A stretch of DNA of 55,027 bases. Source: a virus. The DNA lies in the IMG/VR virus record IMGVR_UViG_3300001472_004174, positions 1 to 55,027 of that record; one strand, 5' to 3'. The notes beneath the pieces were generated by a model that saw only the letters and a program-made list of their open reading frames with translations, was not told the origin of the DNA and made no database searches. Below, in pieces: positions 175-49,471 of the stretch. Position 1 is the first letter of the stretch. Each line of letters begins with the position of its first letter. Position numbers and translations under genes: made by a program.

Positions 175-559
175 TTGTAGCACTACACCAAAATCAGTCA
201 TATATACGCCTAAACCAGTAGAGCGTCCTGAGTTAATTTTGCCTGAAACAAAAACTTTGAATATGCGTAATGTTGACTTCATTGTAATGACAAGAGAAAA
301 TGTTGAAGAAGAATTCGCTAAGTTAGAAAAAGACGGTAAAGCTATTGTTATTTTTGGGTTAGATGCAGAAGACTATGAAAAGTTATCATTCAATATAGCG
401 GACATCTTAGAGTTATTAGACCAACAACAGTCAGTAATAGTTGCATATAGAGAATACTACGAAGAAGCAGATAAAACCCTTGAAGAAATCAATTTACAAA
501 GCGAGATAGAAATTGAAGTCGATGAAGAAGGTGGCTTTCTTTCTAATTTTCTTAAATGA
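101..559 (+). CDS. Lipoprotein, probable outer-membrane spanin
   Basis: A 152-residue protein with a basic N-terminus (MLLKKVKQ), a hydrophobic stretch at about 11-24 and a lipobox ending LLTSC, so Cys26 is the likely lipidated residue after signal peptidase II cleavage. A proline-containing segment follows (about 28-50), then a mixed acidic domain with a helical YREYYEEADKTLEE region. It starts inside the preceding Rz-like gene and its last codons overlap the next gene (ATGA). That position fits an o-spanin acting in host lysis. It is longer than a typical Rz1, so another envelope function is possible. The lipoprotein call is firm; the spanin call is inference. Confidence 0.6.
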   Translation: MLLKKVKQTPHVLILLILTTFLLTSCSTTPKSVIYTPKPVERPELILPETKTLNMRNVDFIVMTRENVEEEFAKLEKDGKAIVIFGLDAEDYEKLSFNIADILELLDQQQSVIVAYREYYEEADKTLEEINLQSEIEIEVDEEGGFLSNFLK

Positions 560-942
560 CATCCAGTCCATACGCAGTTCTAAAAATCGATAAATATTCT
601 ACAACAGATGATATCAGAAAGTCTTATAAAAGACTCATGAAGAAACATCATCCTGACACTGGAGACGGTGACAGAGAAACATTCGATAAGGTAAGACTTG
701 CTTATATACAGTTAAAAGATAAAAAATCCAAAAATGGTGTTGTAAGGACACTCAGCATAACAGTCCCTATAACAAAGCAAGACTTATCCTTAATTTTAGG
801 CACTAAACAATCATTCATGTGCCAAGATGTTCCTTTTGATGTAATGGTTCCTTATGAGACTAGGATTAATGATACCATAGTTGTTAAAAAAATACTAGGT
901 GACTTGTCACTTAAAATAAAATTCAAGGAAGAAAATGAGTAA
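556..942 (+). CDS. J-domain protein (short DnaJ-like co-chaperone)
   Basis: A 128-residue protein whose first 60 residues form a J domain: YAVLKIDKYSTTDDIRKSY, then KKHHPDTGDG with an intact HPD tripeptide, then the final helix ending LAYIQLKDK. The second half (about 65-125) is beta-rich and resembles one substrate-binding barrel of DnaJ, without the zinc-finger. The family stimulates ATP hydrolysis by DnaK-type Hsp70s, so it could redirect the host Hsp70. It overlaps the lipoprotein gene by 4 bases and the ClpA gene by 8, implying translational coupling with an unfoldase. The J domain is clear; the client proteins are unknown. Confidence 0.85.
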   Translation: MTSSPYAVLKIDKYSTTDDIRKSYKRLMKKHHPDTGDGDRETFDKVRLAYIQLKDKKSKNGVVRTLSITVPITKQDLSLILGTKQSFMCQDVPFDVMVPYETRINDTIVVKKILGDLSLKIKFKEENE

Positions 943-3154
943 AGCAGATAGAGTAAATGTTTCGATTGAACGTGCCGTACAACATGCAAATTCTTTAGCA
1001 CACGAATATGTGACACTAGAGCATCTTCTATATTCAATTATGGAAGAACCTGATGTTAGCAATATGCTTACTCAGATGAAATGTAATGTTAAGTTTATGT
1101 TAGATGAATTAGAAAAGTATCTTAATGAGCGTGATGATATTACAAAAGGTGAGGATAATACCACACCAAGAAAAACGCTATCATTGGACCGTGTGTTTAA
1201 TCGTGCAGTAACACAAGTAATTTTTAGTGGTCGTTCTAAACTTCAAGTAAGAGATATATTTGTTTCTCTATTAAGCGAGACTGGATCTGTTGCTTATTAT
1301 ATCTTAAAACAATCAGGTGTATCAAGAGAAAAAGCAATCGATATTCTAAGAAAAGAATATTACGGAACTAGCCAAGGTAGAGATATGGTTGGTGGACCTC
1401 AAGGTCAAGGAGCACCAATAAAATTTGAAGATTATTGTTTAAATTTAAATCAACAAGCATTAGACGGAATAATCGATCCTGTTATTGGACGTGAAGAAGA
1501 ATTAATAGAATTAACAGAGGTACTAGCAAGACGTAAAAAGAACAATGCTATCATTGTAGGAGAACCTGGTGTAGGTAAAACTGCAATCGCAGAAGGTCTT
1601 GCATTAATGATTGGTGAAGGTCATGTACCAGATATATTAAAAGATAAAACAGTCTATTCACTAGATGTTACATCACTTGTAGCAGGTACAAAGTACCGTG
1701 GTGAATTTGAAGAAAGAGCAAAAGCAGTATTTGACCAATTATCAAGTAAAGATGATGTAATCTTATTCATTGATGAAATTCATATGATTATGGGTGCAGG
1801 TTCGGCAGGTGGATCTAACATAGATATTGCAAACTTATTAAAACCATTATTAGCAAGTGGTAAATTGCATTGTATTGGTGCAACAACAAGTGAAGAATAC
1901 AGAGAAAACTTTGAAAAAGATAGAGCATTACAAAGACGTTTTCAGAAACTAGTTATTGAACAACCAAGTGCAGAGAATACAAAATTAATTTTGAAAGGCT
2001 TGAAACAATATTACGAAGCATACCACGAAGTTGAATACACAAGTGAAGCGATAGAGTTATCAGTTGATTTAGCAGAACGTTATATGCATGGTAAGTTTAA
2101 CCCTGATAGAGCAATCGATGTTATTGATGTAGCAGGCGCAAGAGCAAAGCTACATAAACATAAAGGTAAAATTACTAAAGAAGAAATACAACAAGCCGTA
2201 GCAAAAATTACAAGAATTCCTTTAGAAATGATAGATGCAAAACAAAATGCAAACTATGAAAAACTAGAAGAAAGTATCAAGACAAAACTATTTGGGCAAG
2301 ACAAAGCAGTTAGTTCATTAGTCGAATCTATACTCGTATCTAAATCAGGTATGAGAGCAAGAAATAAACCAATTGGTTCATTCTTATTTGTAGGTCCGAC
2401 AGGAACAGGTAAAACTGAATTGTGTAGACAATTAGCAGACAAACTTGATATTAAACTTAGAAAGTACGATATGTCAGAATATATGGAACAACATTCTGTA
2501 TCAAAACTTATCGGTGCCCCTCCGGGCTATGTAGGACACGCCGAAGGCGGGGCTGGCGCAGGACAATTAATCAATGACATAGATGAAACACCTAACTGTG
2601 TTGTTCTATTAGATGAAGTTGAAAAAGCCCACCCAAGTGTAATGAACCTCTTATTACAAGTTATGGACGATGGTCGTTTGACTAGTTCAACTGGTAAAAC
2701 AGCAGACTTTAGCAATGTTATTCTTATAATGACTAGTAACTTAGGAGCGGCACAACAATCTAAGAGTGCTATAGGGTTCACGAATTCAAATGAAGGCGCT
2801 TCATATGAAGCAGTTAAGAGATTCTTTTCACCAGAGTTTAGAAATAGACTTGATGCAATGGTTGAATTTACTTCATTAGAACGTGAACACATAGATATGA
2901 TTGTTAAGAAAACAATCAAAGAAATTAATGAAATGTTATCAGATAAAAATGTAACTATTAAATTATCAGCAAAAGCAAAAACATGGCTGAGAAATAAAGG
3001 ATATCAACCTGATATGGGAGCGAGACCTTTACAACGTGTAGTAAATGATTACATCAAAAAACCATTGTCAAAAGAAATATTATTTGGTAAACTTGTTGAT
3101 GGTGGACTGGTAACTATAAAAATTGTAAATGATGAGATTGAATTTGAATACTGA
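935..3154 (+). CDS. clpA: ClpA-type AAA+ unfoldase
   Basis: A 739-residue Hsp100 protein close to the size of bacterial ClpA. Order: Clp-N repeat domain (about 1-145), first AAA+ module with Walker A GEPGVGKT near residue 209 and Walker B ILFIDEIH, second AAA+ module with Walker A GPTGTGKT near 487 and VVLLDEVEKAHP, then the C-terminal D2-small domain (GYQPDMGARPLQRV). There is no long middle domain, so it is ClpA-like rather than ClpB-like. SAIGF near residue 611 sits where ClpA carries its IGL/IGF ClpP-docking tripeptide, so it may recruit host ClpP; no ClpP gene is seen in the window. It follows a J-protein gene in the same overlapping operon. Confidence 0.93.
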   Translation: MSKADRVNVSIERAVQHANSLAHEYVTLEHLLYSIMEEPDVSNMLTQMKCNVKFMLDELEKYLNERDDITKGEDNTTPRKTLSLDRVFNRAVTQVIFSGRSKLQVRDIFVSLLSETGSVAYYILKQSGVSREKAIDILRKEYYGTSQGRDMVGGPQGQGAPIKFEDYCLNLNQQALDGIIDPVIGREEELIELTEVLARRKKNNAIIVGEPGVGKTAIAEGLALMIGEGHVPDILKDKTVYSLDVTSLVAGTKYRGEFEERAKAVFDQLSSKDDVILFIDEIHMIMGAGSAGGSNIDIANLLKPLLASGKLHCIGATTSEEYRENFEKDRALQRRFQKLVIEQPSAENTKLILKGLKQYYEAYHEVEYTSEAIELSVDLAERYMHGKFNPDRAIDVIDVAGARAKLHKHKGKITKEEIQQAVAKITRIPLEMIDAKQNANYEKLEESIKTKLFGQDKAVSSLVESILVSKSGMRARNKPIGSFLFVGPTGTGKTELCRQLADKLDIKLRKYDMSEYMEQHSVSKLIGAPPGYVGHAEGGAGAGQLINDIDETPNCVVLLDEVEKAHPSVMNLLLQVMDDGRLTSSTGKTADFSNVILIMTSNLGAAQQSKSAIGFTNSNEGASYEAVKRFFSPEFRNRLDAMVEFTSLEREHIDMIVKKTIKEINEMLSDKNVTIKLSAKAKTWLRNKGYQPDMGARPLQRVVNDYIKKPLSKEILFGKLVDGGLVTIKIVNDEIEFEY

Positions 3155-17976: not shown

Positions 17977-18432
17977 ATGGCAAACTTTAAACATCACATA
18001 AGATTAATGATGAAAGAAGAATGGAATAAACACGATATTAAAGGTGTTATTACTGTTCTTAAAAAGGCTATTGCCAATATATTTGAGCCAAAAGAAGATG
18101 GCACCGCAGTAGTATATCATATGATGGATGATTTTCATGTATATGATTTTCGTATGAATAGGGCAGTAACAGAAGCAGAAGCAGAAGTGGTGTTAAAGTT
18201 GTTACAAAACTGGACTGACAAAGACTTTACTATGGAAATTACTACTAGTGAACAGTTTGATATTCCAGAGGGTGAGACCGAAATAGATTTATCTTCAATA
18301 CGACATAATAGATGGGTATCTAGTCGTGTTGATGATGGTTGGAGATATGGTCTGCAATTTAATGAAACTGAGAAAACTGATCCCAGATTACGACCGTACC
18401 ACGAACTAACTGAAAAGTTGAAAAATCTATGA
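17977..18432 (+). CDS. RyR-domain protein
   Basis: A 151-residue soluble protein. The C-terminal 45 residues match the RyR (ryanodine receptor repeat) signature: HNRWVSSRVDDGWRYG, then TEKTDPRLRPYHELTE. In phages and bacteria this domain appears in short proteins of unknown function, thought to bind a small ligand or partner. The N-terminal 100 residues (with a YHMMDDFHVYDFRMNRAVTE segment) are not recognised. It sits 9 bases after the holin-like gene and just before the promoter of the Fe-S operon. Confidence 0.7.
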   Translation: MANFKHHIRLMMKEEWNKHDIKGVITVLKKAIANIFEPKEDGTAVVYHMMDDFHVYDFRMNRAVTEAEAEVVLKLLQNWTDKDFTMEITTSEQFDIPEGETEIDLSSIRHNRWVSSRVDDGWRYGLQFNETEKTDPRLRPYHELTEKLKNL

Positions 18433-18440
18433 TTTTCGAC

Positions 18441-18469
18441 TTGACTTTAGAGTGAAAATGATATATTAT
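18441..18469 (+). promoter_or_regulatory. Early sigma70-like promoter of the Fe-S/ACP operon
   Basis: TTGACT (18441-18446), 17-base spacer, TATTAT (18464-18469); TGATATATT also offers an extended -10. It lies 20 bases before the HscB-like ATG and reads into the whole 18490-22455 operon. Confidence 0.75.
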
Positions 18470-18489: not shown

Positions 18490-19029
18490 ATGTCTGGAAT
18501 AAAAAGAATATATGGTCTTGAAGAAAAGAACTACTTTAAGTTCTTTGGTATTGATGAAAAGCAAGGGATAAGTGGGCGTAGTCTTACGACACACTATAAA
18601 AAAATTCTAACTATCCTTAAGAAGGACACTTCATTCACAGGTCAAGACAGATTAGCATTTGCAAATAGGGCTTTCGAAACCCTTGCAGATCCTATTGCCC
18701 GTGCAAGATATATACTTGGACTAAAAGGTCATGAGAATGATTTTAGAGACGGTGTTAGACCTGATGATATTCTTTTTATTAATCAACTAAAACATCAATT
18801 AGAAGAACAACTTACTGTAGAAGACATAACACAATACATTGATGAATTGAAGGACCAAACACAGTTCATTAAAGACCAAATAGAACAAAGTATTGATACA
18901 TATCAGAATTACAAAACTGCTAGTGGATTATTGAATAGATTTTATGAAATATCAGAAATTCACCAAGAAGCAAAACAAAAACAAGAAAAGATTCAAGAGG
19001 GGATAACCTATGTTGTATTTAACAGATAA
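18490..19029 (+). CDS. hscB: HscB-like Fe-S co-chaperone lacking the HPD motif
   Basis: A 179-residue protein of HscB length and architecture. N-terminal J-like domain: NYFKFFGIDEKQGIS, a helix, then ANRAFETLADPIARARYILGLKGHE, which matches HscB closely. The C-terminal three-helix region (about 90-170) begins FINQLKHQLEEQL, the position where HscB contacts IscU. The HPD tripeptide needed to activate HscA is replaced: the segment reads TILKKDTS, with only the Asp kept. It could therefore still bind IscU but probably not stimulate HscA. First gene of the operon, overlapping the next by 20 bases. Confidence 0.8.
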   Translation: MSGIKRIYGLEEKNYFKFFGIDEKQGISGRSLTTHYKKILTILKKDTSFTGQDRLAFANRAFETLADPIARARYILGLKGHENDFRDGVRPDDILFINQLKHQLEEQLTVEDITQYIDELKDQTQFIKDQIEQSIDTYQNYKTASGLLNRFYEISEIHQEAKQKQEKIQEGITYVVFNR

Positions 19030-19339
19030 CTCTACAGCAAGAATTAAACAATGGTTGTCTCAGAACCCAAAACAAAAAGTGAGATTAAGTATAGATGTTG
19101 CCGGTTGTACTGGCTTCATGTACGAAGTTAAACTTGATGACAAATTCAACATAGAAGATGACTTTGCAATTAAGTATAGTGACTTTGACATTCTCGTAGA
19201 GCATAAATATTTTCACACTATTGACGGAGCAACATTAGATTATATCACTGATCCTAAGAGTATGAGTTCGCATTTCGAACTTCAAAATAATCCAAATGAA
19301 AAAGCACGTTGCGGATGTGGAGAGAGTTTTACGGTATGA
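19010..19339 (+). CDS. iscA: A-type Fe-S carrier (IscA/HesB family), copy 1
   Basis: A 109-residue HesB-type protein with the three conserved cysteines: Cys33 in AGCTGFMYEV and Cys101/Cys103 in the ARCGCGESF C-terminal CGC motif. The family carries Fe-S clusters or iron from the scaffold to target apoproteins in the cytoplasm. A strong ribosome-binding site (gagggg) lies before its ATG inside the HscB-like gene, and its stop overlaps the nitroreductase start (ATGA). The central region (DFAIKYSDFDILVEHKYF) is divergent from typical IscA, so its exact subfamily is not clear. Confidence 0.9.
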   Translation: MLYLTDNSTARIKQWLSQNPKQKVRLSIDVAGCTGFMYEVKLDDKFNIEDDFAIKYSDFDILVEHKYFHTIDGATLDYITDPKSMSSHFELQNNPNEKARCGCGESFTV

Positions 19340-20058
19340 ATGAAAGAATGAAAAGTGAGAAACATGCGATAAATCAAGCACGTAGATGCCAAAGAAATTG
19401 GGACCTTTCTAAAGAAGTAGATGAGGATCACATAGACCATTGGATTTACCTAGCAACTACATCACCATCAAAACAAGATGAGAGTTTTTTTGATTTATAC
19501 GTTGTTACTGACAGAACAAAATTAGATTATCTCTACAAGGAACATTCGTGGGGCTTCACAATGTTACCTGGTATGAAAGATTGGGTCGGAAGAAACCCAC
19601 AAATGGGAGCAAACTGTTTGTTTGTTTTCAATAGAAAGATGAACGAAGAAGAAATTCGTAATAACGAAAAAGATGGAAGCGTAAGAGATCCAAATGCGGC
19701 AAGTAGATGGGATAATGCGTTTACATCAATTGGTATAGCAAGTGGCATTGTAGCCTTTAGTGCAAATATGATGGGCTATGTTACTGGCTATGGAAAGAAT
19801 TTTGGTTACATTGAAGAACCAAAGCACAGTCAGGATGTTTGGGGTGAAGTTCTCGGCATTAAGAAAGAAGATAACAACTTGACATATAGTTTGGGAATTG
19901 GTTACCCAGATGAAAGCCTTCAATGGTATCAAAGTAAAGATAACAACGAATACCTAACAGGAGGTCCTGTTAATTATTCAATAGAGTCTACTGACACTGA
20001 TTTAAAGTATTCAACATATTCTAAATTAGCCAGAGATATAAAGGTGTGGCGAGTATGA
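19336..20058 (+). CDS. Nitroreductase-family flavoprotein
   Basis: A 240-residue protein; start placed at the ATG overlapping the IscA stop. [16 protein letters not shown] near the N-terminus matches the nitroreductase RRSxRxF-type FMN-binding motif, [17 protein letters not shown] the following segment, and [19 protein letters not shown] the dimer helix. The family binds FMN and reduces substrates with NAD(P)H. It lies between two A-type carriers, overlapping both by 4 bases, so its product may supply electrons to Fe-S assembly or handle a flavin-dependent step. That link is inference from position only. Confidence 0.75.
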
Positions 20059-20378
20059 TTTTTACAGAAAAAGCGGCTACGAGAGTAGAAGAAATTATCA
20101 TGGAACAAGGCGAAACCAACGATACAGCATTAAGAGTGTTTGTTGAAGGTGGCGGGTGCCATGGTTTTAGTTACGGTTTTGGTTTTGAAAAAGACCTTAA
20201 GGATGATGATAGTGTCTATGAAACTAATGGCGTAAAGTTAGTAGTAGATAGTATGTCAATTATGTATCTAGCAGATGCAAAAGTAGATTATATCTCTAGC
20301 CTACAAGGCGACAGATTTGTAATCGATAATCCGGAAGCACAAACTACATGTGGATGTGGTAGTAGTTTCTCAGTGTAA
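20055..20378 (+). CDS. A-type Fe-S carrier (ErpA/IscA family), copy 2
   Basis: A 107-residue protein; start at the ATG overlapping the nitroreductase stop (ATGA), ahead of which GTG and other codons are less likely. Conserved cysteines are Cys35 in [12 protein letters not shown] and Cys99/Cys101 in TTCGCGSSF. The GGGCxGF form and the length fit ErpA/IscA better than copy 1 does. It should carry Fe-S clusters to client enzymes. Having two different carriers in one phage operon suggests separate clients or a hetero-complex. An ACP gene follows after 26 bases. Confidence 0.92.
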
Positions 20379-20404: not shown

Positions 20405-20644
20405 ATGGAAATAAAAGATAAAGTGTATGAAATAACTGCACGAAAAATGAAACGACAGGTCTCTGACTTGAATGATGATACCAATCTAAAGAAAGATTTG
20501 GGTGCTGATAGTATCGATACAGTTGAAATTGTATTTGAAGTAGAAGAATTTTATAAAATTGCTATTCCAGATGAATATGCAGAAAAGATACATACTATCG
20601 GTGATGCAGTCAAGTGCGTAGAGGACATGTTTAATAATCAATAG
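20405..20644 (+). CDS. acpP: Acyl carrier protein
   Basis: A 79-residue acidic four-helix protein with the phosphopantetheine attachment motif GADSIDTVE (Ser36) and the length of bacterial AcpP. It would need host holo-ACP synthase for the 4'-phosphopantetheine arm. Bacterial and mitochondrial ACPs bind the cysteine desulfurase complex (IscS/NFS1-ISD11), so placement among Fe-S genes is meaningful; alternatively it may carry the acyl group activated by the adenylate-forming enzyme at 29975-30673. The sequence does not decide. It is spaced 12 bases from the MotA/ExbB-like gene. Confidence 0.93.
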   Translation: MEIKDKVYEITARKMKRQVSDLNDDTNLKKDLGADSIDTVEIVFEVEEFYKIAIPDEYAEKIHTIGDAVKCVEDMFNNQ

Positions 20645-20656
20645 GAAAAATAGATT

Positions 20657-21109
20657 ATGTCGAAAACTCTAAGGTGGTGGTTGTTCTTTTGTATATCACT
20701 AACAGTCATGGGAATAGGTTATTATTTCGGACTGTTTAATGAATTATATGAAAAGGATGTAACTAAGATTAGCTTTGGTATTATACTCTTGTATATATTT
20801 ACAAGTTTATATATCGGTAAGTTAACGATGGATTATAAGGAAGGTGAAGATATCGAGGCAGGTTTGGGCGTCGGTTGGTTCATATCAGAAAGTATGTTGG
20901 CGTTAGGTATGATAGGTACTGTAGCAGGATTTATTCTGATGTTAGGTTCTAGTTTTGAAGGATTGGATGTAGAAGATACAGCAAGTCTTAAATCAACACT
21001 TACTGCAATGGCATTAGGTATGAGTACTGCGTTATACACGACACTTACCGGTCTTATATTCAGTCAGTTTACTAAGATACAGTTAGTCAACCTTGAGAGT
21101 CGTGACTAA
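20657..21109 (+). CDS. MotA/TolQ/ExbB-like proton-channel subunit
   Basis: A 150-residue membrane protein with hydrophobic segments at about 5-27 and 38-56, then 77-98 (GMIGTVAGFILMLG) and 115-139 (ALGMSTALYTTLTGLIFS). The last two, with the intervening SLKSTLTAMALGMSTALYTT, match the core of MotA/TolQ/ExbB channel proteins, which form a pentamer around a TolR/ExbD/MotB dimer and use the proton gradient. The large cytoplasmic loop is short. Its last base is the first base of the next gene, which encodes the matching partner type, so the pair is probably one complex. Confidence 0.75.
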   Translation: MSKTLRWWLFFCISLTVMGIGYYFGLFNELYEKDVTKISFGIILLYIFTSLYIGKLTMDYKEGEDIEAGLGVGWFISESMLALGMIGTVAGFILMLGSSFEGLDVEDTASLKSTLTAMALGMSTALYTTLTGLIFSQFTKIQLVNLESRD

Positions 21110-21744
21110 TGAACAGAGGCAAGTACAAAAGCACAGTAGGATTTACAGACTTATTATTCAACTTATTAGTAGGGTTTGTATTTCTATTCATCATTGCTTT
21201 TATTTTAATCAATCCAATAACAAAGAAAGCAGATGTACCTAAAAAAGCAGAGTACATGATTGTTATGGAATGGCCTACAGAAGTATCAGATGATATTGAC
21301 TTATGGGTCAAAGATCCTGAAGGTAATACAGTTTCTTTTGTAAAGAAAGAAAACGGTTATATGAATCTTGAAAAAGATGATTTGGGGCACTCCAATGATA
21401 TGACTGTAGATGAGTATGGTAATAAAAAGATTATCTATATCAATAGAGAGGTAATAACATTACGTGGTACTTTAAAAGGACAATACCAAGTAGCGGCTCA
21501 TGTATACGCAATGCGACCATGGCAAGCAAAAAAGAATATTGATGTAAAGGATTTGATAATTAAGGTAAAAATTATTAAAATAAATCCTTATAGAGAAATG
21601 TACATAGGTGATACAAATTATTCATTAAAAGGACAAGAACTATCATTAGTTAACTTTTGGCTAGACAAAGATGGGAATTTTGTTAAATACAATACGTTAG
21701 ATAATAATATTATAACGAGAAAAGCAAGAAACGGCGGGCTTTAA
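21109..21744 (+). CDS. MotB/ExbD-like partner with periplasmic domain
   Basis: A 211-residue protein with a single N-terminal transmembrane helix carrying an Asp at its start (VGFTDLLFNLLVGFVFLFI; Asp14), the place of the proton-carrying Asp of ExbD/TolR/MotB. The rest is periplasmic and contains MEWPTEVSDDIDLWVKDPEG, a DUF2135/YfaP-like beta-sandwich motif, rather than a peptidoglycan-binding OmpA domain or the ExbD fold. So the motor-like base drives an unfamiliar external domain. It overlaps the ExbB-like gene by one base, and a third membrane gene follows. Confidence 0.72.
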   Translation: MNRGKYKSTVGFTDLLFNLLVGFVFLFIIAFILINPITKKADVPKKAEYMIVMEWPTEVSDDIDLWVKDPEGNTVSFVKKENGYMNLEKDDLGHSNDMTVDEYGNKKIIYINREVITLRGTLKGQYQVAAHVYAMRPWQAKKNIDVKDLIIKVKIIKINPYREMYIGDTNYSLKGQELSLVNFWLDKDGNFVKYNTLDNNIITRKARNGGL

Positions 21745-31803: not shown

Positions 31804-33291
31804 ATGAACATAATATTAATGTTACTATTCGTAGTAGCAGTAGGATTAGTAGCCTACAAGTCTAAAGGGGATAATTACTTTCTGACAACATCAGATAGCA
31901 ATATGAACCTTGGGCTTTCTTATGGAGCAACGTTAATTTCAACGTCCGCTATTATAGGATTTGGAGGTCTAGCTGGTTGGATTGGATTTTCTATTCCACT
32001 CACAATGATTATTCCATTCGTGGGACTTATATATCTTGCAACCGTTTATATTGGTCCAAAAGTATACAAAGCTAACAAGAAAATTAAAGCCAAAACGTAC
32101 ATTGAAATGATTGGTAAACATTATAATACACCAATGATTTCTAAGTTACTAGCACTTATTACTGTGGGGTTAATCCCATTTTATTGTGTGGCAGTTCTTA
32201 TAGGTGTCGGTAAATTTATTACTGCATTTACAGGGATTGACTTTACTTTAGCAGTAGTTGGTTTTAGTATTCTAGTTTTTGGAACTATCGCATACGGTGG
32301 AATGAGTTCTGTACTTAAAAATGATATGGTACAAGGTATCATTGTTATTGCAGGGTCACTTGTCGTATTAGCAATTACAGTATTCGTGCATATGCAGGCT
32401 CCCGGTTTTTGGGATAACTTATCAGATGCATGGTTACTAGTACCAGAAGGTGATGGATTGCGTAAACTTAGTTTTACAGGATTTACTAGCTGGCCAGAGT
32501 TTTGGTCTAGAGGCTGGTTAATGATTACTACATTATTAGTATTCACTATTCCAGTAGGACTTATCACTTTGCCTCAACTACAAACACGTTGGATGATGGC
32601 TAAAGATGAAAAGAGTTTTAAAACTATTGCAAATTGGGGTGTTATTATCCCAGGTCTAGCAATCATAACGTTTATGTTAGCGGCAATTTCTGCCAACTCA
32701 TATACGTTTGCTACAGAAGGTATGACAGTTGCACAAGCGGCTGGAGGAACTGCTAGTATTATTCCTTATTGGATTAAGACAGGGTTCCCAGCATGGGTTT
32801 CTAGTGCTTTATTCTTAACTATTTTGGCGGCGGCTTTCACAACTCTTAATAGTTTGATGCATTTACTATCAACAACAATAGCCAATGATATTGTATCTAC
32901 AAAGAAACCAAGTCTTAAAGTAGCATATGGTTCAATGATTGCAGTTATTTTACTAGCACTTTGGATGACAATTCAATTCAATGGGCAAATGGCAATTATT
33001 GCACGTGCAACTGCATTGTATTTTGGTATTATTGGTGCAAGTATGTTACCACTAGTTATTGGAATGGCAAGAGGACTATCTAATGGTCGTCATGCACTTG
33101 CAAGTTTTATTGGTGGTGCAGTAACAAGTATTGGTTGGGTACTATTCGTACACTTCAAAGAATCAAAGTTGTTTACTGGTATCACATATGATATTGGTGT
33201 ATATAACTTTGTTGAACCAATAGTTCCTGGTTTAATTATATCTGGTGCAATCTTTATTGCACTAACATATCTTAGACCAACAATTAAATAA
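31804..33291 (+). CDS. Sodium:solute symporter (SSS family)
   Basis: A 495-residue integral membrane protein with about 13 hydrophobic segments, the size of SSS transporters. GLSYGATLISTSAIIGFGG in an early helix is the sodium-site region, KTYIEMIGKHY matches the family's TxxEfl-type element after helix 3, and ALFLTILAAAFTTLNSLMH, with small residues and two Thr, fits the second sodium-site helix. Members import sugars, amino acids, urea, or acetate with Na+; the substrate is not predictable here. Strong ribosome-binding site (aaggagg) and a good promoter upstream of the tRNA. A full-length transporter in a phage is striking. Confidence 0.88.
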   Translation: MNIILMLLFVVAVGLVAYKSKGDNYFLTTSDSNMNLGLSYGATLISTSAIIGFGGLAGWIGFSIPLTMIIPFVGLIYLATVYIGPKVYKANKKIKAKTYIEMIGKHYNTPMISKLLALITVGLIPFYCVAVLIGVGKFITAFTGIDFTLAVVGFSILVFGTIAYGGMSSVLKNDMVQGIIVIAGSLVVLAITVFVHMQAPGFWDNLSDAWLLVPEGDGLRKLSFTGFTSWPEFWSRGWLMITTLLVFTIPVGLITLPQLQTRWMMAKDEKSFKTIANWGVIIPGLAIITFMLAAISANSYTFATEGMTVAQAAGGTASIIPYWIKTGFPAWVSSALFLTILAAAFTTLNSLMHLLSTTIANDIVSTKKPSLKVAYGSMIAVILLALWMTIQFNGQMAIIARATALYFGIIGASMLPLVIGMARGLSNGRHALASFIGGAVTSIGWVLFVHFKESKLFTGITYDIGVYNFVEPIVPGLIISGAIFIALTYLRPTIK

Positions 33292-33364: not shown

Positions 33365-33772
33365 ATGGCTTATTCAGAAAAAGTGTTAGACCATTATAAT
33401 AATCCACGTAACGTAGGTAAATTTGATCCAAAAGATCCTGACATTGGAACAGGCATGGTAGGTGCACCGGCATGTGGTGATGTTATGCGTTTACAAATAA
33501 AAGTAAACGATGAAGGAATTATAGAAGATGCAAAATTTAAAACATACGGATGCGGCAGTGCTATTGCTAGTTCAAGCATGGTAACAACAATGCTAAAAGG
33601 TATGACATTAAATGAAGCACAAGAAATTAAAAATACAACAATAGTTGAAGAACTAGCGTTACCTCCAGTTAAGATTCACTGTAGCGTATTGGCAGAAGAT
33701 GCCATTAAAGCCGCAGTTAGAGACTATGGTGGTAAGCAAGAAATAAACGCAAAGGCGGTTAGGATAAATTAA
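33365..33772 (+). CDS. iscU: Fe-S cluster scaffold protein IscU
   Basis: A 135-residue protein with every key IscU feature at E. coli numbering: Cys37 and Asp39 in GAPACGDV, Cys63 in YGCGSAIASS, the HscA-recognition loop LPPVK at 99-103, and His105/Cys106. IscU builds [2Fe-2S] clusters on IscS and hands them on with HscA/HscB. With all ligands intact it should be active with host partners. The Asp, LPPVK and length rule out NifU and SufU. It has its own late box, while the HscB-like and IscA genes are early. The next gene starts directly after its stop. Confidence 0.95.
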   Translation: MAYSEKVLDHYNNPRNVGKFDPKDPDIGTGMVGAPACGDVMRLQIKVNDEGIIEDAKFKTYGCGSAIASSSMVTTMLKGMTLNEAQEIKNTTIVEELALPPVKIHCSVLAEDAIKAAVRDYGGKQEINAKAVRIN

Positions 33773-38708: not shown

Positions 38709-41700
38709 ATGAAATTGAGCGAATTTAAGATAGAGAAGCCAAAGCCAGAAGATACTATGGGTATTACTAGAGACAAAATGCCTCAAGTGAAATCTACAGA
38801 CTATGACGCATACAAATCGTATCTTAAAAAGAATGGAGTATCGCTAACTCCACAGGTTGTAAGTGCAAAAGAACTAAAACCAATACAAAAAGAATTTTCA
38901 GACCAAGGTGTTGAACGACAACTAATCAAGAATAAAGAATTTGATGGAAATAATCCAAAGCCTCTATTAGCAAGTAGTGATAGTTGGATTATAGATGGCC
39001 ATCATAGATGGTTGGCCGCATTGAACACAGGCAAAGACGTTAGTATTTTACGTGCAAACATTGACGTTCATGAACTTTTATCCTTGACATTAAAATTTCC
39101 TAGTGTATACTTCAAAGATATATACACAGAAGAGGAAGAATCAATGGAAGTGATTCGAAAAGCAGAACAGTTTGCTCAAGAGGCCCATAAAGACCACAAG
39201 AGAAAATACACTGGACAACCATACTATGTGCATTTGGATGAAGTCAGGAATATTGTTAAGCAGGCCGGTGGGTCTGTCAATCAACAGTGTGCCGCTTTAT
39301 TGCATGACACAGTAGAAGATACTTCTGTAACCTCTACTGATGTTACACGTGAGTTTGGTCCTGCTATTGCTAAACTAGTAATTGAACTTACTGATGTAAG
39401 TAAACCAGAAGACGGTAATAGAAAAGTACGCAAAGGTATCGATAGAGATAAACTATCAGGTGTTAGTGCAGATGCACAGACAGTTAAGTATGCAGACTTG
39501 ATTAGCAATGGTAGAGATATCGGCAAGAACGATCCTAAGTTTGCTAAAGTATACCATGCAGAAAAGGCTGACTTGCTAAGAGTTATGACAAAGGGTAATC
39601 AGAATTTAAGAAAAGAAGCTATCTCTATGCTACCAGATGAATTAAAATCAGTAGTAGGTGAGGCGTTTGGTAGAGCAAACTTTAATAAGCAATTAAAAAG
39701 AAAAGGCCTCGATGTAGATAAGATGCATTCAGATAATGTTAAAGATGCTGAGGCATCTAAGAAAAGAAGTAAGGATGCAGAAGATGATTTAAAAGCATTC
39801 AGAAAAAAGCATGGGATAAAAGAAGAAACACCTTTTGGTTTAATTGCTCGTAAGGCAAATCATTTAGTTCATAAAAAAGCATATGTTAAAATTGCAGATA
39901 TGATGCATGATATACTTACAAGAAAATACAAAGAAACTAATGGTAAACTTAGACATTCACTTGCCTATTATGCACAAATGTTAGCAATGCAGACAAACAA
40001 CAAAATAAACTATCGTGAACTTGAGCAAGAATATCTCAATTCGTATGGTAATGCAATGTTTGAAAGTGAATTAGATGTATCATTATCAGCATTAAGGGAA
40101 GAAGCATTAAACGTAAAGCCTATCATTACACAAGCTATTCGTAAACTAGATAAAGTATTCAAAAAGAATGGTCATGAAGTTAGAATAGTAGGTGGGGCTG
40201 TACGAGATATTGCATTAGGTAAAGATCCAAAAGATATTGACTTCGCCACAGATGCTACTCCTGACGAAATGATTGCTATGCTTGATAAAGCAGGCATCAG
40301 ACACATTCCTACAGGTATAGAACATGGTACAATAACCGCAGTTGTAGATGGAGAAGATTTTGAAATCACAACACTGAGAGCGGACTCAAATACAGACGGC
40401 AGACATGCTGATGTAGAGTTTGTGCGTTCATGGGAAGAAGATGCTAAACGTAGAGACTTAACATACAATGCAATGTCAATGGATATTGACGGTACTGTAC
40501 ATGATTATAATGGTGGTATGGACGACTTACAAGATAAGGTAAGTAGGTTCGTAGGAGATGCAGAAGAAAGAATTAAAGAAGATTATTTGCGTATCTTAAG
40601 ATACTTTAGATTTCAATCTAAGTTAGATAGTCCAAAGTGGGATGATGATACGTTAAAAGCAATTAAAGATAATGCAGACGGCATGTCAGGGTTATCTGTT
40701 GAAAGAATTTGGCAAGAAATAGGTAAATTGTTAATGGGGTCAAGTGCCAAAGAAGCACTTGAGTGGATGAACAAGACAGGCGTATCAAGTAAGATTGGAC
40801 TTGAAGGTATCAATCCAGCTAAACTAGGTGAGCCTACAGGACCTATTATTGCACTTGCAAGAATGCTAGACAGTAGTGGTATTGCAAGAGATTGGAAGAT
40901 GAGCAATTACGATAGAGAAATGTTTGACTTCTTAATCAAGCACAAAGGTGAAAACATAAATTCAAAACAAGCACAAGATATGATTATCAAAGGTGCATCA
41001 CAAGACCATTTACTTGCATGGGCAAACATGCATAGCAAGAAGGATGTATATAATACAGTCCAAGGATTTGAACAGCCAGACTTTCCAATTAATGGTAAAG
41101 ACTTACTAGCAAGAGGTTATGTTGCTGGTCCTAATCTTGGTAAAATGATTGCTGATTTAAAAGATACATGGATGAAATCTAACTATAAACTAAGCAAGGA
41201 AGAATTACTAAGTAAAGTTCCAGTTAGAGAAAATACATTATTTGAAGCAGTTGCTAGATTTATGACAGGACATGGTATTACTTACAAGGGTAAGAAGTAT
41301 GATACAATGGATGTAGAAGTAGTAGCAGTTGATAATGAAAAGAGACAATATCAAGTAATGATATTTGAACCAAAAGAACTACTTGGTACAAATGTAATGA
41401 TGAGTGCAAAATTTATGCACAGAGGTCCTTGGGTTAAAACTAAGATACCTGATTACATGGGAGCAATAGAAAAAGGTTTAGATAAAGAAAAGACAGATGA
41501 ATGGATAGTTCCAGCCGCTCAAGCAGTAGCACATGGTGCCAGAATGGCGGGCCCACATGTAGCGAAGTTTCTGAGAAATGATCCTGCACCTAAGATAGCA
41601 GGCGCTCTTGCGACAACAGGAGGCGTTGCAAATTGGGCAAAAAGCAAGTATAATAGTTGGATGAATAAGAAAAATAAGAAACCAACAACTATAGATGAAG

Positions 41701-42383
41701 ACTTTAATAATCTATTTGAAGATAATACTCCTGATGTCTATGTAGATATGGACGGCGTGTTAGTTGATTTCTTTAATGAATGGGCTAGACTAGTAAACGT
41801 AAAATCATACAGAGATATACCAAAAAAAGATATAGGTAAAGCACTTAAGAAGATTGTTAATACTCCAAACTTCTGGGAAGACTTGCCAGCATTAGCAGGC
41901 TATAAAGACTTGCTACAAACTATTAAAGCCACTAAAGGCAATTATAAAATATTAAGTTCCCCTCTAGCAAATGATCCTAATGTAGATCCTGGCAAAAGAG
42001 AGTGGGTGAGAAAAAATTTAAACTTCTTTAAACCAGAGCAAGTTATCATTGACCACAATAAATCAAAGTATGCAAAGAAACAAGACGGTACTCCGAACTT
42101 GTTAATTGATGATTTTGGTAAGAATGTCAATGCATGGCAATCAGCTGGTGGTATCGCAATTAAGCATCATACATCAACTACTGCAAATACAGTACAAGCA
42201 ATTAAAAAAGTATTCAGTAGAAAAGATGTAAAAGAAGCGGCGGGCGTAGGTAGAGTTATACCTGGCATAAATACCACAGTTGACGTAGGACCCAACGAAA
42301 TTACTAAACAAGCTAAAAAGTTTGGTAATGATGTAGACAAAGATGGGAAACCTAAAAAGCTACTGCGTACAAAGAAAAAATGA
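38709..42383 (+). CDS. Multi-enzyme fusion: ParB-like, SpoT-like HD, CCA-transferase-like, HAD phosphatase-like
   Basis: A 1224-residue protein. Order: MKLSEFKIE tag; ParB-like nuclease motif WIIDGHHRWLAALN (about 93-106); HD phosphohydrolase of RelA/SpoT or Mesh1 type, YVHLDEV, LLHDTVEDT near 197 and KYADLISN near 259; helical linker (about 370-470); CCA-adding or poly(A) polymerase-type nucleotidyltransferase, RIVGGAVRDIALG near 490 with DIDFATDATPDE and a head ending near 640 plus helical body; then a HAD 5'(3')-nucleotidase-like domain, VYVDMDGVLVDFF near 1009 and LLIDDFGKN near 1131. Domain boundaries carry LFE sites (NTLFEAVARF, NNLFEDNTPD). Confidence 0.8.
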   Translation: MKLSEFKIEKPKPEDTMGITRDKMPQVKSTDYDAYKSYLKKNGVSLTPQVVSAKELKPIQKEFSDQGVERQLIKNKEFDGNNPKPLLASSDSWIIDGHHRWLAALNTGKDVSILRANIDVHELLSLTLKFPSVYFKDIYTEEEESMEVIRKAEQFAQEAHKDHKRKYTGQPYYVHLDEVRNIVKQAGGSVNQQCAALLHDTVEDTSVTSTDVTREFGPAIAKLVIELTDVSKPEDGNRKVRKGIDRDKLSGVSADAQTVKYADLISNGRDIGKNDPKFAKVYHAEKADLLRVMTKGNQNLRKEAISMLPDELKSVVGEAFGRANFNKQLKRKGLDVDKMHSDNVKDAEASKKRSKDAEDDLKAFRKKHGIKEETPFGLIARKANHLVHKKAYVKIADMMHDILTRKYKETNGKLRHSLAYYAQMLAMQTNNKINYRELEQEYLNSYGNAMFESELDVSLSALREEALNVKPIITQAIRKLDKVFKKNGHEVRIVGGAVRDIALGKDPKDIDFATDATPDEMIAMLDKAGIRHIPTGIEHGTITAVVDGEDFEITTLRADSNTDGRHADVEFVRSWEEDAKRRDLTYNAMSMDIDGTVHDYNGGMDDLQDKVSRFVGDAEERIKEDYLRILRYFRFQSKLDSPKWDDDTLKAIKDNADGMSGLSVERIWQEIGKLLMGSSAKEALEWMNKTGVSSKIGLEGINPAKLGEPTGPIIALARMLDSSGIARDWKMSNYDREMFDFLIKHKGENINSKQAQDMIIKGASQDHLLAWANMHSKKDVYNTVQGFEQPDFPINGKDLLARGYVAGPNLGKMIADLKDTWMKSNYKLSKEELLSKVPVRENTLFEAVARFMTGHGITYKGKKYDTMDVEVVAVDNEKRQYQVMIFEPKELLGTNVMMSAKFMHRGPWVKTKIPDYMGAIEKGLDKEKTDEWIVPAAQAVAHGARMAGPHVAKFLRNDPAPKIAGALATTGGVANWAKSKYNSWMNKKNKKPTTIDEDFNNLFEDNTPDVYVDMDGVLVDFFNEWARLVNVKSYRDIPKKDIGKALKKIVNTPNFWEDLPALAGYKDLLQTIKATKGNYKILSSPLANDPNVDPGKREWVRKNLNFFKPEQVIIDHNKSKYAKKQDGTPNLLIDDFGKNVNAWQSAGGIAIKHHTSTTANTVQAIKKVFSRKDVKEAAGVGRVIPGINTTVDVGPNEITKQAKKFGNDVDKDGKPKKLLRTKKK

Positions 42384-43705
42384 ATGAACTAAATCCAAAT
42401 CTTCATAATTTAAAAAATACAATGTGTTTCAAAAACTGGAACGACATTATTATATCCTTACCTCAAAGAACAGTAAAGTGGTGTTGTAAAACACAACATA
42501 CACCTGAGCAAATGAAAGAACTGACATTTAATATAGATACACTTACCGAAGATTTTTTATTTAATCATCCTATACTACAAAAACGAAAGTATGAATTAAG
42601 TGGAGGCACTCGTAGTGCAGATTGTTCGGGTTGTTGGAGAACAGAAGATGCAGGCGGTGAGAGTGTCAGAACATCATATAATAGTAATTACGATTATCCA
42701 TGGAGAATGCGTTTACAAAAAGCAGGTAATCATCCAAACATGGCTAAACAATTTCATAGAGATATGATGGAACGTGATAACTTCAAGTTTATTGAAATAG
42801 AATTAACAAATAAGTGCAACATGGCATGTGTGTATTGTTGGGCTGGTTCTAGTACTCGTTGGCAAAAAGAAGTAGGACAGCGTTTTCCAGATACAGATGA
42901 TATGATGTTTGATAAAACACTGCATATTTTAAATGATTATTGGGATAAGAAATTAGTAGGGCAAGGACATGTTAACTTTAGTTTACTAGGCGGTGAGCCG
43001 TTCTTTACTGACCATATGTTTAAGTTTATTGAAGATTTTATGATAAACATTAATGATACTCACACTGAAGGTCAAATAGTAGTAATTACTGTTACAACAA
43101 ATTTAAACTTCCCTAAAAAGAAATTCGATAAATTTATTGAACTAGTACATAGAACACCAAATATACGTTATGAAATGCAACTATCAGGCGAAGCATTAGA
43201 TAAGCAGAGTGAATTAATTAGGTGGGGATTAGATTTTAATAAATGGGATGAAAACTTAGATTTATTTTTTGAGAAGTCAAAGGAAATCGATAACTTAATT
43301 ATTGGGTTTGGTTGCGCCCATAATAGTTTAAGTCTTCCTTACTTCAAAGATTTTTTAGTGTATCTTAATGATAAAATAAATAAGTATGAATATGATAAGA
43401 CAATATTAATGCATCAGAATTGGGTAGATAATCCAGTGCATTTAGCAGTAGATTCGTTAGAGCCACATCATGCAGATGCAATAGAAGAACAAATAGAATA
43501 TTTTCAGAATATGTCTGGTAATTTCTATAAAAAACAAAGATATATTAGATTAATGAAGACAATGAAATCACTAGTAGAAAGCGAAGTACCAGTAGAAACT
43601 AAGCTAATAGCACAAAAACAGTTTAAAATACTAGAAGATAGGCGCAAAATCTCATATTCAGAGTGCTTCCCTCACTTCAATGAACTAATAAATTCAATTA
43701 ATTAA
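42380..43705 (+). CDS. Twitch-type radical SAM protein
   Basis: A 441-residue protein with the radical SAM cluster site LTNKCNMACVYCWAG (CxxxCxxC). Before it, CFKNWNDIIISLPQ and CSGCWRTEDAGG with further cysteines (WCCKTQH) match the N-terminal region of twitch-domain radical SAM proteins found in marine phages; LLGGEPFF is the GGE-like SAM motif and LIIGFGCAHNSLSLP a later strand. It uses a [4Fe-4S] cluster and S-adenosylmethionine; the substrate is unknown. It needs Fe-S clusters, which links it to the phage ISC genes. Overlaps the fusion gene by 4 bases (ATGA). Confidence 0.85.
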   Translation: MNELNPNLHNLKNTMCFKNWNDIIISLPQRTVKWCCKTQHTPEQMKELTFNIDTLTEDFLFNHPILQKRKYELSGGTRSADCSGCWRTEDAGGESVRTSYNSNYDYPWRMRLQKAGNHPNMAKQFHRDMMERDNFKFIEIELTNKCNMACVYCWAGSSTRWQKEVGQRFPDTDDMMFDKTLHILNDYWDKKLVGQGHVNFSLLGGEPFFTDHMFKFIEDFMININDTHTEGQIVVITVTTNLNFPKKKFDKFIELVHRTPNIRYEMQLSGEALDKQSELIRWGLDFNKWDENLDLFFEKSKEIDNLIIGFGCAHNSLSLPYFKDFLVYLNDKINKYEYDKTILMHQNWVDNPVHLAVDSLEPHHADAIEEQIEYFQNMSGNFYKKQRYIRLMKTMKSLVESEVPVETKLIAQKQFKILEDRRKISYSECFPHFNELINSIN

Positions 43706-48904: not shown

Positions 48905-49471
48905 ATGTATACTGATACAATAAATTCTGTAGAGTTTAAGATTATTGGTAATAATTTGAAAGAGTTTTTACAAGGACTGATTACTAATAATATAAACAAT
49001 ATAGATAATGGACCAGTAGAAACATTTATACTTACTCCTCAAGGTAAGATAAAACATCAAGTAACAATAACAGATAAAGGCGACAGCTTTAATATATTAT
49101 GCACTAATGACCAAGGAGATTTGTTTAAGTTTTTAAATATGTATGCAATGCTTAAAAGAATAGTTGTAGAAAAAGTAGATGTACAAAATGTATATGATAA
49201 GAAATACTTCTTAAAACTTTTAGAAAAGGGCAAACTAGATACTAATTTCTTAACACAGCCTTCTTTATATCCTGCTGAGGTAGATGATAGTTTAGTTGAT
49301 TATAATAAAGGTTGTTACATAGGTCAAGAGGTTGTTGCAAGAATGCATTATAAACAGAAGAATAAGAAACAAATACTAATAAGAAACAAATTAGACATAA
49401 TGTATTCAACTGCAAAAGTATTACTAGAGATAGAAAATTGGATTATTGTTAAGGTACCAGTAAATGTGTAA
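48905..49471 (+). CDS. ygfZ: YgfZ-like Fe-S assembly or repair protein (short)
   Basis: A 188-residue protein with the YgfZ signature NKGCYIGQEVVARMHYK (Cys137; family pattern KGCYxGQE). The upstream GLITNNINN and LTPQGKIKHQVT segments match the GCV-T-type folate-binding fold. E. coli YgfZ has 326 residues; this version lacks the C-terminal region and ends soon after the signature. YgfZ supports enzymes such as MiaB using Fe-S clusters and binds tetrahydrofolate. It starts immediately after the polymerase stop and overlaps the next gene by 8 bases. Confidence 0.82.
   Translation: MYTDTINSVEFKIIGNNLKEFLQGLITNNINNIDNGPVETFILTPQGKIKHQVTITDKGDSFNILCTNDQGDLFKFLNMYAMLKRIVVEKVDVQNVYDKKYFLKLLEKGKLDTNFLTQPSLYPAEVDDSLVDYNKGCYIGQEVVARMHYKQKNKKQILIRNKLDIMYSTAKVLLEIENWIIVKVPVNV

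Follow-up and report, generated by a model that had tools for sequence, protein, structure and literature searches.

An HscB-like protein without the HPD motif shares a conserved operon with A-type iron-sulfur carriers in a very large marine phage

Introduction

Why would a phage carry iron-sulfur (Fe-S) assembly genes at three separate loci, and what could they do without the rest of the pathway? We addressed this in a stretch of 55,027 nucleotides (the window, which here means the whole stretch of DNA analysed), bases 1-55027 of a 103,021-bp IMG/VR virus record. The original prediction placed Fe-S reading frames at 18490-20378, 33365-33772 and 48905-49471, and all of them were found there. 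The proposed homologies were borne out for IscU, two A-type carriers, YgfZ and the HscB-like protein, with only the nitroreductase remaining weak. Up to 18 viral contigs share the reading frames, gene order and start overlaps, which excludes chance.

Nishimura et al. (2017, PMC5332604) reported environmental genomes of marine T4-like viruses that combine IscU and/or an A-type carrier with up to 12 radical-SAM genes, and proposed for the IscU and A-type genes the same supply role that we favour below. The broad pattern is already published. The HPD-less HscB family and the short phage YgfZ, together with the two-carrier operon, look new, and in the open-access literature we found no paper that joins HscB with viral auxiliary metabolic genes. 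IscU and A-type genes of viruses have until now been taken for single auxiliary genes. The lineage described here maintains a small operon for delivery and has an HscB rebuilt without the means to call on HscA.

Results

The record is probably a fragment of a larger genome. Its family-B DNA polymerase is closest to those of the jumbo phages Phosso, Atu_ph07, GAP32, CBB and XbC2 (42-48% identity), and phage tail and head-decoration genes are present. The source is a very large marine phage of the jumbo T4-supergroup, and the label "T4-like" given to it earlier is right in this broad sense. In the sister record G003 (342,607 bp) the operon proteins are 87-96% identical to those of the window. 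A further relative, G019, is nearly as long (342,181 bp), and the matching lengths suggest that both are near-complete genomes. We also noted a 1224-aa protein at 38709-42383 of the window, which matches phosphohydrolase, tRNA nucleotidyltransferase and deoxyribonucleotidase families.

The first locus is a run of genes on the plus strand:

18441-18469, plus strand: sigma70-type promoter of the operon, TTGACT-17-TATTAT, found in the same place upstream of 16/16 viral HscB-like genes
18490-19029, plus strand: HscB-like protein of 179 aa without the HPD motif (NCBIfam profiles, profile-profile comparison, predicted fold)
19010-19339, plus strand: divergent A-type Fe-S carrier (TIGR00049, 4e-24; three cysteines kept), its start overlapping the previous gene by 20 nt
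19336-20058, plus strand: probable nitroreductase-family protein, an optional gene (PF00881, 22.3 bits, below the cutoff of 23.5)
20046-20378, plus strand: ErpA-type Fe-S carrier (ErpA PRK13623, 148 bits against a cutoff of 117; three cysteines kept)
20405-20644, plus strand: acyl carrier protein, next in the run (PF00550, 2.8e-10; TIGR00517 above cutoff; synteny in several relatives)

From the HscB-like gene through ErpA the starts overlap by 20, 4 and 13 nt; overlaps of this kind point to translational coupling. Both A-type carriers score above the TIGR00049 cutoff and their three ligand cysteines are invariant in the alignment. The divergent carrier reached none of the equivalog cutoffs for IscA, SufA and ErpA (63, 68 and 65 bits against 151, 136 and 117). 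The predicted nitroreductase has its open reading frame where expected, but the weak PF00881 match makes the family assignment probable at most; its predicted structure had a pLDDT of 31.

The arrangement of the HscB-like gene, A-type carrier(s) and, in some, the acyl carrier protein, with overlapping starts, is found in most of the 18 viral loci, and 15 of these have an A-type gene at most one gene downstream of the HscB-like gene. The ErpA-type carrier is the most constant partner, the divergent carrier and the acyl carrier protein are often present, and the nitroreductase is optional. In three identical copies (G020-G022) the HscB-like gene stands without neighbouring carriers. What stays constant is an operon in which a conserved sigma70-type promoter precedes the HscB-like gene and one or more A-type carrier genes. 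On its flanks, an RyR-domain protein (17977-18432 in the window) is the neighbour most constantly found upstream of the HscB-like gene (18/18 viral loci), while a MotA/ExbB-like membrane protein and, behind it, another membrane-anchored protein (20657-21744) are kept downstream in most relatives.

The promoter pattern TTGAC[TA]-17-TAnnnT was found upstream of the HscB-like gene in all 16 distinct loci and always with a spacer of 17 nt, against a background of 0.013 per 80 nt in G003. A promoter scan of the single sequence gave no excess (20 found, 19.9 expected). The conserved pattern is good evidence that the operon has a promoter of its own, predicted to be read by host sigma70 RNA polymerase, and the promoter type suggests early expression. 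The T4-type late promoter TATAAATA gave 4 matches against 9 expected, one of them 28 nt before iscU.

We then examined the HscB-like protein. NCBIfam HscB models matched it with E values of 1.5e-11 to 8e-8, the best one over almost the full length, yet all below their cutoffs (TIGR00714, 36 bits against 46.75). All viral members match these models. Profile-profile comparison, which the original prediction had named as a check, returned cellular HscB at 98.2% with an E value of 4.9e-14, and sequence matches in the PDB point the same way. The predicted fold (pLDDT 80) has the two-domain architecture of HscB, with a TM score of 0.69-0.78 to 1fpo, and its ten best PDB matches were all HscB/Hsc20/Jac1. 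As a positive control, tblastn with the phage protein as query found hscB in its exact place after iscU-iscA in many genomes of Pseudomonas and other proteobacteria. Sequence and predicted fold both speak for homology to HscB.

The HPD motif consists of three J-domain residues required for HscB to stimulate HscA. It was present in 80/80 cellular HscBs examined (drawn from the IscU search and mostly from Pseudomonas) and in none of the 16 distinct viral sequences. Since it is lost in every distinct viral copy, the loss is old and fixed in the viral family and not a sequencing error, and joint action with host HscA cannot be assumed. Of the term "co-chaperone-like" used for this protein, the kinship with HscB stands while the co-chaperone part is put in doubt. 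In E. coli HscB, residues L92, L96 and F153 contact IscU (PMC3040723). In the viral proteins, in a stretch where the alignment is uncertain, the L92 position is hydrophobic throughout, L96 falls on a gap, and F153 is unmatched in register, with a conserved phenylalanine two residues off. Residues of the IscU-binding helix that are conserved in cellular HscB are largely lost.

The other two loci hold the scaffold and a putative repair factor:

33365-33772, plus strand: IscU scaffold (TIGR01999, 221 bits with the cutoff at 192; ligand residues and LPPVK retained)
48905-49471, plus strand: short YgfZ/IBA57-like protein (TIGR03317, 52 bits against 49; KGCYIGQE; five viral relatives)

IscU is 78% identical to the E. 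coli protein and retains C37, D39, C63, C106 and LPPVK in the alignment. Judged by its sequence it is a true IscU, intact as originally predicted. In the tree it lies within a supported virus-only set of 13 sequences. The best cellular relatives among the matches listed, at about 82%, are from Pseudomonas, Amphritea and Methylophilales; as the tree is poorly resolved, we dropped the naming of a host from IscU. The copy at the same locus of G003 is 77% identical to that of the window. Directly upstream of iscU lies a sodium:solute symporter of the SSF family (31804-33291), which is 98% identical in G003 with a different iscU allele behind it; to our knowledge, such transporters are unusual in phages. 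In 77 of 80 viral IscU loci the stretch examined, short in some cases, contained no homologue of IscS, HscA, HscB, Fdx or IscR, so a host-dependent phage IscU looks like the usual design.

The YgfZ-like protein has 188 aa, compared with about 326 in E. coli, and stays below the length of about 300 aa or more expected of a full-length protein. It is a short YgfZ, as had been proposed. Its five viral relatives are of similar length, and KGC..GQE is invariant in the six viral copies. These relatives occur in radical-SAM-rich phages, and in another marine phage a radical-SAM gene ends within the start of ygfZ (L116:3980-3986). In E. coli, the radical-SAM enzymes MiaB and RimO need YgfZ (PMC10002905).

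To see whether the missing ISC parts lie outside the window, we searched more widely. The IscS/SufS (aminotransferase class V), Hsp70 and 2Fe-2S ferredoxin families were absent from the whole 103-kb record and from G003, and tblastn with E. coli IscS, HscA and Fdx gave no match in G003 and G019. The absence of IscS, HscA and ferredoxin first reported for the window extends to the entire record and to two relatives of about 342 kb, and the description of a near-complete Fe-S set has to be given up. We rejected a complete ISC pathway because no IscS, Hsp70 or Fer2 family match was found. Nor is the set fixed: G003 has no detected YgfZ, the gene next after the polymerase following directly there, and G019 has the operon but no IscU.

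Three candidates were set aside during these searches. The GenBank entry CAKLQH020000011.1, named "Acinetobacter phage MD-2021a", seemed to be a phage with the full operon; the contig is a bacterial chromosomal region with iscRSUA-hscBA-fdx, and the database name is misleading. G013, which has a full-length Hsp70 suggesting a bacterial contig, was left out of the phage evidence. A Grx5-type monothiol glutaredoxin as ISC partner was also dismissed, since the glutaredoxins of G003 and G019 carry CGYC and CTFC and not CGFS.

Finally, we looked at possible clients of the Fe-S genes.

42380-43705, plus strand: twitch-domain radical-SAM protein, presumed client (NF033640, 173 against 170 bits; CNMACVYC)

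The earlier suggestion was Fe-S supply for this one protein or for host enzymes. The link to radical-SAM chemistry was upheld, but the record has eight radical-SAM domain matches, with CxxxCxxC present in eight proteins, and there are 17 matches in G003, 20 in G019 and 15 in G020 (202.7 kb). The five cultured jumbo phages closest by DNA polymerase have 4, 4, 1, 1 and 1 such matches and lack the HscB-like gene. The density is 5-17 per 100 kb in HscB-bearing records and 0.3-0.9 in the cultured jumbo relatives (Mann-Whitney p 0.0008, a value that ignores relatedness and habitat). The link of the phage Fe-S genes to radical-SAM enzymes is well supported. Most of the CxxxCxxC proteins of the record sit in a cluster at about 81.6-94.3 kb. 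This minus-strand region (G000:81656-94344; L003:7157-19845) combines twitch/SPASM radical-SAM genes with aspartyl/asparaginyl beta-hydroxylase-like and aminotransferase-like genes and looks like a modification or biosynthesis island.

Discussion

Our preferred reading, which we consider reasonably probable, is that the phage supplements the late stage of Fe-S delivery to serve its own [4Fe-4S] radical-SAM enzymes, with an HscB-like protein that handles IscU without HscA. Host IscS, ferredoxin and iron supply would start clusters on IscU (that of the host, plus that of the phage where encoded). Phage A-type carriers would take the clusters from IscU and, with YgfZ where encoded, would build [4Fe-4S] clusters and hand them to the radical-SAM enzymes. 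The HscB-like protein, seen as a remodelled HscB devoid of HPD, most likely docks on IscU and may hold or steer it to the phage carriers, HscA not being triggered. Transcription would come from the operon's own promoter through host sigma70 RNA polymerase. Both the feeding of radical-SAM enzymes by the carriers and the binding of IscU by the HscB-like protein are what we infer from the genes. The conserved operon and its promoter, the key cysteines kept in IscU and both carriers, the high radical-SAM counts and the company that phage ygfZ keeps with radical-SAM genes speak for late delivery. Against it stand a radical-SAM comparison that takes no account of relatedness or habitat, G019, where the operon and 20 radical-SAM matches occur without IscU, the carrier-less HscB-like gene of G020-G022, and IscU-contact residues that are matched in part at best.

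The lost HPD motif also allows for a more hostile role, and takeover of host IscU is the main rival to the supply reading, although we regard it as unlikely. The HPD-less protein would act as a decoy, occupying on host IscU the site that IscS also uses, without hand-over to HscA, so that host delivery slows and IscS persulfide is freed for tRNA thiolation. HscB and cysteine desulfurase do vie for a single face of IscU, and cluster transfer is slower when HscB acts without HscA (PMC9596805). Furthermore, deletion of iscU, hscA or hscB in E. coli favours phage lambda, which needs the IscS-TusA branch (PMC2900299). The loss of HPD in every viral copy, an HscB-like protein encoded without IscU in G019 and a promoter suggesting early expression would all fit. 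However, two points argue for supply: the HscB-like gene shares its operon with intact cluster carriers, and IscU is encoded in about five other HscB-bearing records (G001, G002, G003, G009, G010 and G023, of which G001-G003 look like one phage).

A broader form of the idea, tentative yet deserving somewhat more credence than the pure decoy, is that the HPD-stripped HscB, made under the control of a host-type promoter, takes hold of IscU, so that clusters or sulfur leave the host HscA route and go to phage carriers or tRNA thiolation. If this is true, we know of no viral protein shown before it to reprogram the chaperone cycle of the ISC system.

The decay of the IscU-binding helix could instead mean that the HscB-like protein serves a role outside Fe-S metabolism, e.g. 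in virion assembly or host membrane functions, and that its adjacency to the carriers is coincidental. The RyR-domain protein at 17977 is its most constant neighbour, and G020-G022 keep this pair without carriers. Such exaptation seems rather doubtful to us, since 15/18 loci have an A-type gene within one gene downstream and the HscB-like gene has its own conserved promoter, which is not mere read-on from the RyR gene.

HPD could also be provided in trans, and the window does encode a second J-protein:

556-942, plus strand: small DnaJ-type J-protein with intact HPD (PF00226, 5.6e-13; HHPDTG)

In that case the HscB-like protein would bind IscU, and this J-protein or host HscB would contribute HPD, so that HscA is still recruited. 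An HPD-bearing J-protein is encoded in six HscB-bearing records (that of the window, G003, G019, G020, G009 and G023), and IscU keeps the HscA-binding motif LPPVK. The J-protein gene, however, is 17.5 kb away from the HscB-like gene, its overlap with a ClpA/B-like AAA+ gene (935-3154) hints at a role in disaggregation, and in E. coli the HscB and DnaK/DnaJ systems are functionally insulated (PMC9596805). Mainly because of this gene overlap we judge a split co-chaperone improbable; the J-protein may or may not be part of the Fe-S system.

Finally, chance acquisition of host genes with no Fe-S-linked benefit might explain why IscU and YgfZ are patchy and why IscU differs between window and sister at the same locus, but it is very hard to reconcile with the conservation of key residues and gene order, which extends to phage lineages with protein identity as low as 47%, and with the virus-only set that holds the window's IscU.

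Late delivery to the phage's own enzymes ties phage Fe-S genes to a measurable demand, since the three largest records with the HscB-like gene have 15-20 radical-SAM matches apiece. If the HscB-like protein still binds IscU, it would also be a natural test of how HscB affects IscU when HscA plays no part, which the field has yet to settle (PMC9596805).

Several known systems invite comparison. Like the bacterial iscRSUA-hscBA-fdx operon of E. coli and Pseudomonas, the phage has homologues of IscU, A-type carriers and HscB; unlike it, the phage lacks IscS, HscA and Fdx, spreads its genes over three loci and has an HscB without HPD. The two-domain fold is common to the viral proteins and the J-type co-chaperones HscB/Hsc20/Jac1, whereas the viral members lack HPD (16/16), have a J-domain shorter by about 8 residues and a diverged IscU contact helix. 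A lone IscU, intact and 73% identical to the phage IscU described here, is found in Phage C48C1 (OQ984149, Kyanoviridae), which in contrast has no HscB-like gene and a single radical-SAM match in its genome. The phages of Nishimura et al. (2017, PMC5332604) likewise are marine, T4-like and radical-SAM-rich with IscU and A-type carriers; the accessible part of that paper does not mention HscB, a two-carrier operon or YgfZ, and the phages described here are jumbo-sized, with records of up to 342 kb. The delivery step itself resembles, by analogy and not as a claim of membership, the mitochondrial ISCA1-ISCA2-IBA57 system (PMC5437272). The phage YgfZ is shortened, patchy and placed in another locus, but here too two different A-type carriers are accompanied by a YgfZ/IBA57 homologue.
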